DNA of 64,000 nucleotides from Limnochorda pilosa (GTDB lineage: Bacteria; Bacillota; Limnochordia; Limnochordales; Limnochordaceae), in the NCBI RefSeq assembly GCF_001544015.1, contig NZ_AP014924.1, positions 620,001-684,000 of the forward strand, written 5' to 3'. Shown here in pieces: positions 5,203 through 15,151 of the stretch (its first letter is position 1; each line of letters starts with the position of its first letter). A program made the translations under genes and the position numbers. The notes beneath the pieces were generated by a model. That model saw only the letters and a program-made list of their open reading frames with translations. It was not told the origin of the DNA and ran no database searches.

Positions 5203-8052
5203 TTGAAGCAGGTGGTGGTCCTGGGGGCGAGCTTCGCCGGGCTGAACGCCGCGATGCGGCTGCGCCGGCTTCTCCCAAGCGGAGACCGGGTAGTGCTGGT
5301 GAGCGACACGCCCGCGTTCGTCTTTCGGATCTCCCTCCCCTGGATCGTCTTCGGCAAGCGAAAGCCGGAGCAGATCACCGTGGACGTACGGCCGTTGCTG
5401 GCCTCCCGCGGCGTGGAGTTCGCCCACGACATGGTGGAAGGGATCGACCCGAAGGGGTGTGCCGTCGCCACCCGGGGCGGCCGGATTCCCTACGACTACC
5501 TGCTGGTTGGGCTCGGGGCCCGCCTCGACTGGCAGGCCGTGCCCGGCCTGAGGGAGCACGGCCACTCGGTCCTCTGGATGGACGACGCCCGGAAGATGGC
5601 CCGGTCCCTGGACGCCTTCCAGGGCGGGGAGGTCGTGCTGGGCCTGGCGGAGGGCTCGCCACACGTCTGCCCCGAGTACGAGATGGCCCTCCAGATGGAC
5701 GACTACCTCCGCCGGCGGGGCATCCGAGGACGGGCGGCGATCCACTTCGTCTCCTCCGAACCCCGCCCGTACGCCGTGGGCGGCGATGGAGCGGTCGCGA
5801 TCGTCGAGGCCATGTTCCGGAAGTACGGGATCATCTTCCACCCGGGCACCACGCCGGTGGAGGTGGGCCCCGGGAAGGTCGCCCTCAGCGACGGCAGCGA
5901 GATTCCCTCCGCGTTCACCTCCCTGAGCCCACCCTACGTGGGCACCGACCCGGTGCGGCGGACGCCCAACCTGGCAGACGAGAGAGGCTTCGTCGCGGTA
6001 GGCAAGGACATGCGGAGCGCGGCCCACCCGAACATCTTCGCGGCGGGGGACGCGGTGGCGTACGCTGGGATCAAGACCGGGCGCATCGCCGAGCTTCAGG
6101 CAGGGGTGGCCGCGGAGAACATCGCCCGCGAACTCCTGGGCCAGGCGGCGAGCAAGGAGTACCGTTCGGAATTCTTCTGCCTCAGCGACCTGGGGCACGG
6201 CCGGGGGATCGCGGTGTACGGCAAGGCCGCCCCCGGGGAGGACCGGCCCCGGACCTTCCAGACCCTGGGCGGCCGGCTTCCCTACTGGTTCAAGCTCCTC
6301 TTCGAGCGGTACTACCTCACCCGGCGGATCCCCGGGCCCCGGACGGACGTGGCCGGGCTGACACTGCCGCCGGAGCCGCTGGCTGCACCGGACGACGGCT
6401 GCGACGGGCGCTGGGGGGGCGTGCTGAACGAGCTGGGAGTGCTGCGGGTGCAGCTCAGCGCCCTGGGCCAGCGCATCGAAGCCGTACGGGCGAGCCTGAC
6501 CGTGCGGGAGAGCTCCGAAGGTCTCGACCACCAGCTCAGGCGGGTTCGCCTGGCGCTGGGGGAGAGCATGGACCTGGTGGTCCGCGAGGTGCGTCTGGGA
6601 GGCGGCGGTCACCGGCTGGCCCTGGTGTACCTCGAGGGGCTGGTGGACCAGACCCTGGTGGGTGAGCAGATCCTCCGCCCCCTGATGGAGGCCGCCCCCG
6701 AGCTCGCGGCCCTGCAGGCAGGCACGGGTCAGGACCTCCTCGACCTGCTGCGCACCCGGGTGCTGGCTGCCGCGGACGTGCAGAGGGAGCCGGACGCGGA
6801 CGCCGCCCTGGGCCGGCTCTTCGGAGGTAACACCCTGGTGCTGGCCGACGGCACCTCGGGGGCCCTGATCTGCGAGACGGCCGGCTACCCCATGCGTGCG
6901 GTGGAGGAACCCACCAGCGAATCGGGCGTGCGGGTCCCCCGCGAGGGCTTCACCGAGTCGCTCCAGGTGAACCTCTCGCTCTTGCGGCGGCGCATCCGCA
7001 GCCCCGACCTGTGGATCGAGGGGATGCAGATCGGGCGAGTGACGGGGACGCGGGTGGCCTTCGCCTACGTGCGGGGCACGGCCGACGACGCCCTGGTGGC
7101 GGAGGCGCGGCGGAGGCTCCGGCGGATCGACATCGACGGGGTCCTGGAGAGCGGCTACCTGGAGGAGTTCATCGAGGACCAGCCTTACTCGCCCTTCCCC
7201 CAGACCCTCCGCACCGAGCGGCCCGACGTGGTGGCGGCCAACCTCCTGGAGGGCCGGGTGGCCATCTTCACCGACAACACGCCGTTCGTCCTGGTGGCGC
7301 CTGTGGTCCTCACCCAGCTCCTGGGCGTGAGCGAGGACTACTACGAGCGGTTCCTCATCGGATCGGCCCTGCGGTTCCTCCGGTACGTCGCCTTCGTCGG
7401 GTCCATGGCCCTGCCGTCCGTGTACATCGCGGTCACCACCTTCCACCAGGAGATGCTGCCCACCTCGTTGCTCCTCAGCGTGGCCGCCGCCCGGGAGGGC
7501 GTACCCTTCCCGGCCATCGTGGAAGCGATGCTCATAGAGCTCATGTTCGAAATGCTACGCGAGGCGGGCGTGCGACTGCCTCGGGTGGTGGGTCCGGCCA
7601 TCAGCATCGTGGGCGCCCTGGTGCTGGGCCAGGCGGCCATCAATGCCAGCCTGGTCTCGCCGGCCATGGCGGTCGTGGTCGCCATCACCGCCATCGCATC
7701 CTTCTCGACCCCGGTCTTCTCGCTGGCCGTCAGCGCGCGCCTCCTCCGCTTCGCCTTCATGATCGCCGCTGCCGCTCTCGGCCTGTTCGGTGTGATGACC
7801 GTGGGCATCGCGGTGCTCCTGCACCTGGCCGCGCTCCGGTCCTTCGGCGTGCCGTACCTCAGCCCGTTGGGGCCGCTGGTCGTCCAGGATTGGAAGGACA
7901 TGGTGGTCCGGGCCCCCTGGTGGGCGATGAAGAAGCGGCCCAGGACGGTCGGGAGCCCGAACCGGTGGCGGCGGCCTCCGGGCGAGCCGGCGCGGGTGTT
8001 CCGCCCCAGGCGCCGGGAGGTGCCGCGTGCTGCCGCGGAGGAGAGGGGGTAG
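5203..8052 (+). CDS. SQR-like flavoprotein fused to spore germination receptor subunit GerA
   Basis: A 949-aa two-domain protein. Residues 1 to about 385 form a complete FAD oxidoreductase of the sulfide:quinone reductase / flavocytochrome c type: dinucleotide motif VVVLGASFAGL at the N-terminus, a Cys in HVCPEYE (residue 156) and one in FFCLSDLG (residue 326) at the places of the two redox-active SQR cysteines, the FAD segment IFAAGDAVAY, and the amphipathic tail PYWFKLLFERYY that anchors SQR to membranes. The third, usually peripheral, SQR Cys appears to be Leu. Residues from about 407 are a full GerA: soluble part (SMDLVVREVRLGG), FTDNTPFVLVAP, then 5-6 membrane helices. No stop separates the halves. 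The start is the TTG at 5203, with a weak GGTGG site. GTG codons at 6421-6448 could allow separate initiation of GerA. It heads a gerA-B-C-D operon. Confidence 0.88.
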   Translation: MKQVVVLGASFAGLNAAMRLRRLLPSGDRVVLVSDTPAFVFRISLPWIVFGKRKPEQITVDVRPLLASRGVEFAHDMVEGIDPKGCAVATRGGRIPYDYLLVGLGARLDWQAVPGLREHGHSVLWMDDARKMARSLDAFQGGEVVLGLAEGSPHVCPEYEMALQMDDYLRRRGIRGRAAIHFVSSEPRPYAVGGDGAVAIVEAMFRKYGIIFHPGTTPVEVGPGKVALSDGSEIPSAFTSLSPPYVGTDPVRRTPNLADERGFVAVGKDMRSAAHPNIFAAGDAVAYAGIKTGRIAELQAGVAAENIARELLGQAASKEYRSEFFCLSDLGHGRGIAVYGKAAPGEDRPRTFQTLGGRLPYWFKLLFERYYLTRRIPGPRTDVAGLTLPPEPLAAPDDGCDGRWGGVLNELGVLRVQLSALGQRIEAVRASLTVRESSEGLDHQLRRVRLALGESMDLVVREVRLGGGGHRLALVYLEGLVDQTLVGEQILRPLMEAAPELAALQAGTGQDLLDLLRTRVLAAADVQREPDADAALGRLFGGNTLVLADGTSGALICETAGYPMRAVEEPTSESGVRVPREGFTESLQVNLSLLRRRIRSPDLWIEGMQIGRVTGTRVAFAYVRGTADDALVAEARRRLRRIDIDGVLESGYLEEFIEDQPYSPFPQTLRTERPDVVAANLLEGRVAIFTDNTPFVLVAPVVLTQLLGVSEDYYERFLIGSALRFLRYVAFVGSMALPSVYIAVTTFHQEMLPTSLLLSVAAAREGVPFPAIVEAMLIELMFEMLREAGVRLPRVVGPAISIVGALVLGQAAINASLVSPAMAVVVAITAIASFSTPVFSLAVSARLLRFAFMIAAAALGLFGVMTVGIAVLLHLAALRSFGVPYLSPLGPLVVQDWKDMVVRAPWWAMKKRPRTVGSPNRWRRPPGEPARVFRPRRREVPRAAAEERG

Positions 8053-10415: not shown

Positions 10416-10634
10416 GTGTTGGGGGTGGGGGTGCTGATGCTCTGCATCGCCGCCGCCGACGCGCCCGGGCTCTTCCGGGAAGGACGCTGGCGGGAGCTGG
10501 GCGCGTTCCTCCTGGTCTGGGGCGTCGCCTCGGCCCTGGCGCTGCTGCAGGCGTCGCAGGTGGAGCTCCCGGTGCCCGCCGTGGTGATCGTGGACCTTGT
10601 CCGGAAGCTCGTCGGAAGCGGCGCGGCGCATTGA
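10416..10634 (+). CDS. small two-helix membrane protein of germination operon (D-subunit type)
   Basis: A 72-aa protein with two predicted membrane helices (GVGVLMLCIAAADA and LGAFLLVWGVASALALLQA) joined by a short charged loop. The GTG at 10416 has AGGGAGGGG six bases upstream and lies 15 bases after gerC, so it belongs to the operon. Small two-helix D proteins encoded beside gerABC operons modulate germination in Bacillus, and this one has the same size, topology and position. Assignment rests on context and topology, not on recognisable sequence identity. Confidence 0.7.
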   Translation: MLGVGVLMLCIAAADAPGLFREGRWRELGAFLLVWGVASALALLQASQVELPVPAVVIVDLVRKLVGSGAAH

Positions 10635-13147: not shown

Positions 13148-15151
13148 ATGGCGGTGGAACGAAGGCTGCGGCATCCGGCGGGCGGCGAGACGCCCGGACC
13201 GGGCGTGAGGCTCACCTACCCGCTGGTGCGGGAGGGCGGGCGGTTGGTGCGAGCCACCTGGGACGAGGCGCTCGATCGGGTCGCGGCGGGTCTCTCCCGC
13301 ATCCGGGAGCAGTACGGCGGCGACGGCTTCGGGCTCTTCAGCTCATCCAAGGCCACCAACGAGCTGAACTACCTGGCGGGCAAGTTCGCCCGGCAGGTGA
13401 TGGGCTCCAACAACGTCGACAGCTGCAACCGCACCTGACACGCCCCCAGCGTCGCCGGTCTGGCGACGGTCTTCGGGGCCGGGGGCGGCACCAGCTCCTA
13501 CCGCGAGATGGAGGAGACGGAGCTCATCCTCCTCTGGGGGTCCAACGCGCGGGAGACCCACCCGGTCATGTTCCACCACATGCTGAAGGGCATCCGGAAC
13601 GGCGCCCGGATGGTCGTGATCGACCCCCGCCGCTCCTCCAGCGCGGCCTTCGCCGACCGCTGGCTTCCCGTGAAGGTGGGGGCGGACATCGCCCTGGCCA
13701 ACGCCATGGGCCGGGTCATCGTCCAGGAAGGCCTGGTGAACCAGGCGTTCGTCCGGGAGGCGACCGAGGGGTTCGACGCCTACCGGGCGTCGGTGGAGCC
13801 CTACACCCTGGGGCTCGCCGAGGTCCTCTCCGGCGTTCCGGCCGAGGCCATCGCCGCCACGGCCCGGGAGTACGCGCGCTCCGAGCGGGCCATGATCTGC
13901 TGGACCCTGGGGATCACCGAGCACCACAACGCGGTGGACAACGTCTTCAGCCTGATCAACCTGGCGCTCCTCACCGGCCACGTGGGGCGGTACGGCTCCG
14001 GGCTCAACCCGCTACGGGGGCAGAACAACGTGCAGGGCGGCGGCGACATGGGGGCGCTGCCCAACAAGCTGGTGGGCTTCCAGGACGTGGAGGACCCCCA
14101 GGTGCGCGCCCGCTTCGAGGCGGGCTGGGGCTGCCGCATCCCACCCAGGGCGGGCCGGCACCAGACGGCCATGTTCGAGGCCATGGAGGAAGGGATCCTG
14201 CGGGGCGTCTACGTGATCGGCGAGAACCCGCTCCGCTCCGAGGCCAACGCCCGCCACGTCCGGCGGCTCTTCGAGGGCCTGGAGTTCCTGGTGGTGCAGG
14301 ACATCTTCCTCACCGCCACGGGCGAGCTGGCCGACGTGGTCCTGCCGGCGGCCGTGGGATGGTGCGAGACTGAGGGCACCGTCACCAGCAGCGAGCGAAG
14401 GGTGCAGCGGTGCCGCAAGGCGTTGGAGCCGCCGGGGGAGGCCCGGGACGACCTCTGGATCCTCCGGGCGGTGGCCAACCGCATGGGGATCGGCTGGAGC
14501 TACCCGAACGCGGGGGCGGTCTGGGACGAGGTGCGGCAGCTCTCACCCCTCCACCGGGGGATGAGCTACCGGCGCCTCGAGGAGCGGAACGGCCTCCAGT
14601 GGCCCTGCCCGTCCGAGGATCACCCGGGCGAGACCTTCCTTCACGGGCGCCTCTGGAAGCGCCCGCTGGAGGGCCGCCGGGCACCCTTCGTCGCCGTGAG
14701 GCACGACCCGCCGGTGGAGCAGCCCGACGATGCGTACCCCTTCCTCCTCACCACGGGGCGGAAGCTGGACTTCTTCAACACCGGGGTGCAGACGGAGCTC
14801 TACGGAACGCCCACGCCCAAGGAGGAGCGGCTGGCGATGAGCCCCGCGGACGCGGCCCGCCTGGGCCTGGCCGAGGGCGCCTGGGCGCGGGTCAGCTCGC
14901 GCCGGGGCTCGGTGGAGGTGCGGGTGCGGGTGGATTCCGGCCTCTCCCCAGGGCTCTGCTTCATGACCCCCCACTTCCCTGAGAAGACGGAGACCAACCT
15001 CCTCACCGTCGACGCCACGGACCCCAAGGCCGGCACCGCTGAGTTCAAGGCGACCGCGGTGCGGGTGGAGCCCCTGGCGCCGCCCGGGGCCGGAACGGAC
15101 CGGGAAAGGGCCGCGGCGGCCGCGGCGACCGCGAGGAGGGATCGAGCGTGA
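13148..15151 (+). CDS. fdhA: formate dehydrogenase catalytic subunit, selenocysteine-containing, lacking the N-terminal Mo4Fe4S domain
   Basis: Molybdopterin (Mo/W-bisMGD) subunit that oxidises formate to CO2, 667 residues when the in-frame TGA at 13436-13438 is read as selenocysteine 97 (SCNRT-U-HAPSVAGLA). The context matches the Sec site of known formate dehydrogenases, and a SECIS hairpin follows. Downstream landmarks are LLWGSNARETHPVMF, RPL-type GLNPLRGQNNVQGGGDMG and the C-terminal dinucleotide-binding barrel (FLLTTGRKLDFFNTG). Unlike normal FdhA it starts at RLTYPLVREGGRL and has no Mo4Fe4S cysteines; these are encoded at 16976-17914. The start is the ATG at 13148 behind a G-run. It overlaps the next gene by four bases (GTGA). 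Confidence 0.92.
13436..13479 (+). promoter_or_regulatory. SECIS element for UGA-directed selenocysteine insertion
   Basis: Immediately after the UGA at 13436-13438, CGTCGCC (13450-13456) and GGCGACG (13462-13468) form a perfect 7-bp stem closed by the five-base loop GGTCT. The loop begins 18 bases after the UGA, the same spacing and the same GGUCU loop as the SelB-binding hairpin of Escherichia coli fdhF, from memory of that sequence. A lower stem GCCCC/GGGGC (13442-13446 with 13475-13479) extends it. This is strong evidence that the UGA is recoded, not a nonsense mutation. Confidence 0.9.

Follow-up and report, generated by a model that had tools for sequence, protein, structure and literature searches.

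A single open frame on the forward strand of the Limnochorda pilosa genome (5203–8052; 949 codons, TTG start, TAG stop) joins a complete flavoprotein domain resembling sulfide:quinone reductases (SQRs) to a complete germinant receptor A subunit (GerA), at the head of a ger operon. The joined frame is really present in the sequence, and we tentatively read it as a lineage-specific in-frame fusion producing one polypeptide, an interpretation to which we give slightly less than an even chance. In descriptions of GerA-type receptors, nutrients gate a channel assembled from A, B and C subunits, in some cases together with D. If an oxidoreductase is covalently joined to the A subunit, it would be the first enzyme that we have found as part of such a receptor, and electron-donor chemistry would feed directly into a spore's decision to germinate. 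Should there be no fusion, an SQR-like gene still heads one ger operon here and adjoins another in a second family, and a connection of quinone or sulfur redox with germination can be tested. Whether this is a new receptor architecture or a pair of ordinary neighbours depends on a single homopolymer. Positions are those of the window, the whole stretch of 64,000 nucleotides that was analysed (bases 620001–684000 of one 3,817,036-base contig).

The Joined Frame and the ger Operon

Frame 1 is free of stops from before 4795 to the TAG at 8050, and both other forward frames are interrupted by stops. Codon-usage scores favour this same frame over 5218–7900, through both halves, with dips at 6340–6400 (the linker) and in the gerA tail. 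Pfam places PF07992 at residues 2–296 and PF03323 at residues 449–914 (6547–7944), the latter scoring 601.6 bits against a cut-off of 27 and covering profile positions 4–465 of 466. Stop scan, codon usage and Pfam thus bear out the claim of the initial annotation that one uninterrupted frame leads from a complete SQR-like domain into a complete GerA. A chance long frame in GC-rich DNA is ruled out by the full homologous domains in both halves and their one coding signal, since a stand-alone SQR gene must end somewhere. Frame 0 was also considered as the true continuation of the SQR; it extends to a TGA at 6663, inside GerA, and is implausible.

The operon that this gene had been said to head, gerA-B-C-D, is likewise borne out, all of it on the forward strand. 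The gene gerB (Spore_permease, PF03845; 8053–9180) begins directly, at 0 nt, after the gerA stop; gerC (Spore_GerAC_N, PF25198, and Spore_GerAC, PF05504; 9177–10400) overlaps gerB by 4 nt in an ATGA; and a gerD-like gene for a small protein of 72 aa with no Pfam match (10416–10634) follows 15 nt after gerC. Shine-Dalgarno sequences (AGGAG/GGAGG) lie at 8 nt from gerB and gerD, and scans for sigma-70 promoters, terminators and sigma-G-like promoters were uninformative. Similar gerD-like frames of 73–76 aa stand after gerC at four other loci (L050, L051, L053 and L054), none of them known to Pfam where tested.

Farther along the window, the gene for a formate dehydrogenase alpha subunit (13205–15151) is interrupted by a TGA at 13436–13438, within '...SNNVDSCNRT*HAPSVAGL', which is the expected selenocysteine codon, and gene callers would therefore split the gene. 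Formate dehydrogenase and [NiFe] hydrogenase have been reported in L. pilosa (PMC11456536).

The SQR-Like Half

The N-terminal FAD domain (residues 1–374; 5203–6324) has sulfide:quinone reductases as its best solved relatives by sequence. AlphaFold models it confidently as an SQR-like domain, with block-mean pLDDT of 85–98 to about residue 340, and the best Foldseek matches are the SQRs of A. ferrooxidans (AfSQR) and A. aeolicus (AaSQR), with target-normalised TM scores of 0.81–0.86 and an rmsd of about 2.1–2.2 Å. Both PF07992 and these top fold matches indicate the FAD-binding two-domain disulfide-reductase fold. Curated SQR-type models are matched far below their cut-offs (NF049943 with 116.4 of 525 bits, a second model with 82 of 310 bits), and the domain is therefore named SQR-like.

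Cys156 (TGC, 5668–5670) and Cys326 (TGC, 6178–6180) are invariant across seven aligned sequences. The earlier statement that both cysteines of the SQR trisulfide bridge are kept stands insofar as both are present, invariant in orthologs, and Cys326 aligns exactly with the distal SQR cysteine; it needs amending for Cys156, which is found in the loop of the proximal SQR cysteine, two alignment columns away from it (C-P-E-Y-E versus C-F-G-P-A-Y). The motif C-x-x-Y-E is common to the window protein, six relatives from Limnochordia and one further genome (G321), and other relatives carry C-F-G-P-x-Y or C-M-G-A-A-Y. The supposed C-terminal membrane helix proves to be a single, short predicted helix (residues 358–373; 6274–6321) that aligns with the amphipathic membrane-binding helix of SQRs and forms no transmembrane span; orthologs stop here or bear a short variable tail.

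The same genome holds a second, more distant SQR-like gene (contig bases 1418486–1419610), clustered with TusA-like and DsrE-like genes (L055:5472–7338), and this cluster is probably a housekeeping sulfur system.

Occurrence among Relatives

The search for relatives covered 73 class genomes and a sample of 398 from the phylum, and a species-genome collection was scanned as well. Close relatives of the SQR half in the class and phylum genomes are all unfused, in frames of 376–498 aa, and the scan of the species-genome collection yielded only six, all of them from Limnochordia (G002, G008, G011, G013, G015 and G020) and none fused. GerA genes were listed in full for 14 genomes of the order and as best matches in 199 genomes of the phylum. 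The nearest gerA genes, in G012 and G003, form a supported clade with the window gerA and have unrelated genes upstream, with no SQR. Among the best GerA matches listed from the 199 phylum genomes, where rarer cases could be missed, there is no other long N-terminal GerA fusion; their frames span about 490–720 aa, the exceptions being two high-GC frames from Limnochordia, neither of which is a fusion of this kind. Very long GerA frames elsewhere in the class were also examined: those at L124 and L125 (1074 aa) contain GerA alone, with gerB divergent, that at L053 has gerB as a separate gene, and that at L126 is a GerA–GerB fusion.

A search of the literature available found no SQR or oxidoreductase fusions in germinant receptors. 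The initial annotation knew of no GerA with an enzymatic domain, and we agree, having found no other case in the genomes searched or in that literature; its proposal to look for the fusion in related genomes returned no second case among the 73 class and 398 phylum genomes. The SQR–GerA arrangement is so far unique in the genomes searched. Sister genomes with two separate genes had been named as grounds for refutation: the relatives of each half are indeed all separate, but none has this SQR directly before this gerA, and the refutation is not a strict one. End branches are modest in both trees (GerA 0.21, SQR 0.60).

A second proximity of SQR and ger genes occurs in one family of relatives (f2), where the SQR ortholog and the gerC of a gerABC operon face each other tail to tail in three of four genomes (G008, G011 and G013, the short contig of G013 showing gerC only). 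These orthologs overlap or touch gerC (L045:7903–9177, L049:2379–3650 and L030:644–1855), and the fourth genome, G002, has the same SQR–ImuB–DnaE block with no ger operon. In the tree, GerA of the SQR-adjoining operon of G008 belongs to a different clade from the window GerA, and this is therefore a second juxtaposition of SQR and ger genes. A genome of some 2500 genes has about four ger operons, from which we estimate that chance alone would put a given gene in contact with one of them in about 0.3% of genomes; the three genomes probably share one event. The two genes are convergent and not co-transcribed, and the neighbourhood could be accidental, given the G002 block that carries no ger operon. 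No ger neighbours were seen at eight loci of SQR relatives elsewhere in the phylum. The neighbourhood hints at a link between SQR and germination, as a lead rather than proof.

One Polypeptide or Two Genes

The two domains are separated by a low-confidence junction (residues 375–439; 6325–6519; pLDDT below 50) with one predicted helix at residues 405–430 and, at 6340–6400, the low coding score. A run of seven Gs within it (6413–6419), absent from the initial annotation, is the sole G/C run of at least six in the fused gene. A TGA in the +1 frame (6425–6427) starts 6 nt past the run and would terminate the SQR if the run were G6. Possible separate gerA starts are the GTG codons at 6421, 6439 and 6448 (6421–6450); the first two lack a Shine-Dalgarno sequence, and the third has GGAG 7 nt upstream.

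In favour of a fusion are the one stop-free frame with a single coding signal through both halves, and the integrity of each half: the PF03323 match is nearly full, the cysteines and the FAD-binding start are kept, the end branches are modest, and the SQR domain is confidently modelled and nearest to solved SQRs. The lack of a strong independent start for gerA, unlike gerB and gerD, points the same way, as do the sound-looking assembly at long G/C runs, the existence of another in-frame ger fusion (GerA–GerB in G015), and the f2 SQR orthologs adjoining a ger operon of another GerA lineage. Against it stand the G7 run exactly at the junction with the +1-frame TGA 6 nt on, the stand-alone orthologs of both halves, the restriction to one genome, a linker without coding signal of its own, and frameshifts in the sequence of two or more further genes of the genome. 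If the fusion is real, it is probably young.

The strongest competing explanation, a substantial possibility though clearly short of even, is that the run is truly G6 and the seventh G a sequence error, so that the SQR ends at the TGA at 6425–6427 and gerA starts at one of the three GTG codons, as two separate, tightly coupled genes. What was observed would then be a gerABCD operon with an SQR-like gene in first place, and no fusion. Indel rates bearing on this were taken from a 460-kb sample of the same genome, drawn as stretches and read with a frameshift-tolerant gene model. The sample contains 58 G/C runs of at least seven, and any one stretch of 60 nt has a chance of about 0.75%, judged after the fact, of holding such a run, so that its place at the junction, right before the +1-frame TGA, argues for two genes. 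Two clear frameshifts, whether mutation or sequence error, were found in the 460 kb, in an ABC-transporter permease gene (L135:4790) and a TorD-like gene (L132:12175), and count on the same side, but neither is at a G7 run; the former, the only suspected frameshift to lie no more than 35 nt from a run of at least seven, apparently shifts before the run. Indels thus occur in this genome, though not at G7 runs, and the near absence of frameshifts at long G/C runs elsewhere in the assembly speaks against an error here. Further consistent with two genes are the separateness of every ortholog, the tight stop/start contacts at the other operon junctions (0 nt, a 4-nt overlap, 15 nt), and the N-terminal leader that GerA would have from GTG 6421, sized like that of its own paralog (L054). 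The missing Shine-Dalgarno match at GTG 6421 and 6439 counts the other way, as does an overlap of 7 nt, seen in none of 40 sampled overlapping pairs; yet a start at GTG 6448, with its GGAG and 20 nt past the TGA, would be nothing unusual. Had a single base been inserted naturally into two overlapping genes, the sequence would look just as it does after a sequencing error.

It is improbable, in our estimate, that the fused frame is real while GerA is made mostly by internal initiation at 6421–6448, the long product, the outcome of a recent indel, being minor or neutral. The GGAG before GTG 6448, the occurrence of the fusion in a single genome and the two-gene layout still visible in the +1 frame would suit this course, but a Shine-Dalgarno match this good precedes 26% of internal in-frame start codons, and the GGAG is therefore not special. 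Very improbable is a switch at the G7 run, in which DNA or RNA slippage would yield a mix of fused and separate products and a tethered enzyme in part of the spores; the place of the run exactly between both genes and the +1-frame stop would suit this, but seven Gs are short for efficient slippage.

Proposed Role of a Possible Fusion

Under the fusion reading, an SQR-like gene directly before gerA in one operon would have lost its stop, and the protein made would be an A subunit of a germinant receptor that carries an FAD enzyme flexibly tethered to its N-terminus. The SQR domain would sit at the inner membrane of the spore, on the side of the core and next to the quinone, with the low-confidence region of about 65 residues as the joint. 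It may bind FAD and reduce menaquinone with electrons taken from sulfide or a thiol, and the receptor might be modulated through the state of the flavin, a disulfide or the quinone, with the germinant recognised by GerB instead.

Published work places the N-terminal domains of A subunits in the spore core, assigns germinant binding to the B subunit and has the A subunits form the channel (PMC13170314, PMC11841064), and the SQR domain would therefore not meet an external germinant first. These data leave unsupported the earlier suggestion that the receptor senses sulfide, polysulfide or redox state, and in our analysis the domain is less likely to be a front-line sensor of sulfide than a redox module with a modulating function. 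The likeliest role would be that of a redox module modulating the gate, or acting locally on sulfur species as germination starts. That the gate is actually set by the attached core-side flavoenzyme, the redox state of sulfide or thiols or of the menaquinone pool permitting or blocking germination and redox being one of the inputs to a GerA receptor, we consider unlikely.

Comparison with Known Systems

The nearest parallel to the loss of a stop between adjacent ger operon genes is the in-frame GerA–GerB fusion of G015 (L126:2936–5881, a 981-aa frame), which differs in joining two receptor subunits, with no enzyme. The SQR-like clade of Limnochordia (G002, G008, G011, G013, G015 and G020), together with G321, shares 40–44% identity with the window protein over the whole domain and the same C-x-x-Y-E, but its members are separate genes that end at, or shortly past, the residue where the window protein continues into GerA. 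Solved SQRs (A. aeolicus 3hyv, A. ferrooxidans 3t2z, and 3h8i) resemble it in fold, FAD/NAD(P)-type two-domain architecture, distal cysteine and the C-terminal helix predicted for it; the window protein differs in its proximal cysteine, two columns off, its shorter C-terminus and the attached GerA. With GerA-type receptors (GerAA-AB-AC-D; PF03323, e.g., 6o59 and GerIA 9prb) it shares a complete GerA, whose N-terminal domain is homologous to the solved A-subunit N-terminal domains, followed by gerB, gerC and a small D-like gene, and it differs from them in its extra N-terminal SQR-like flavoprotein of about 375 residues.
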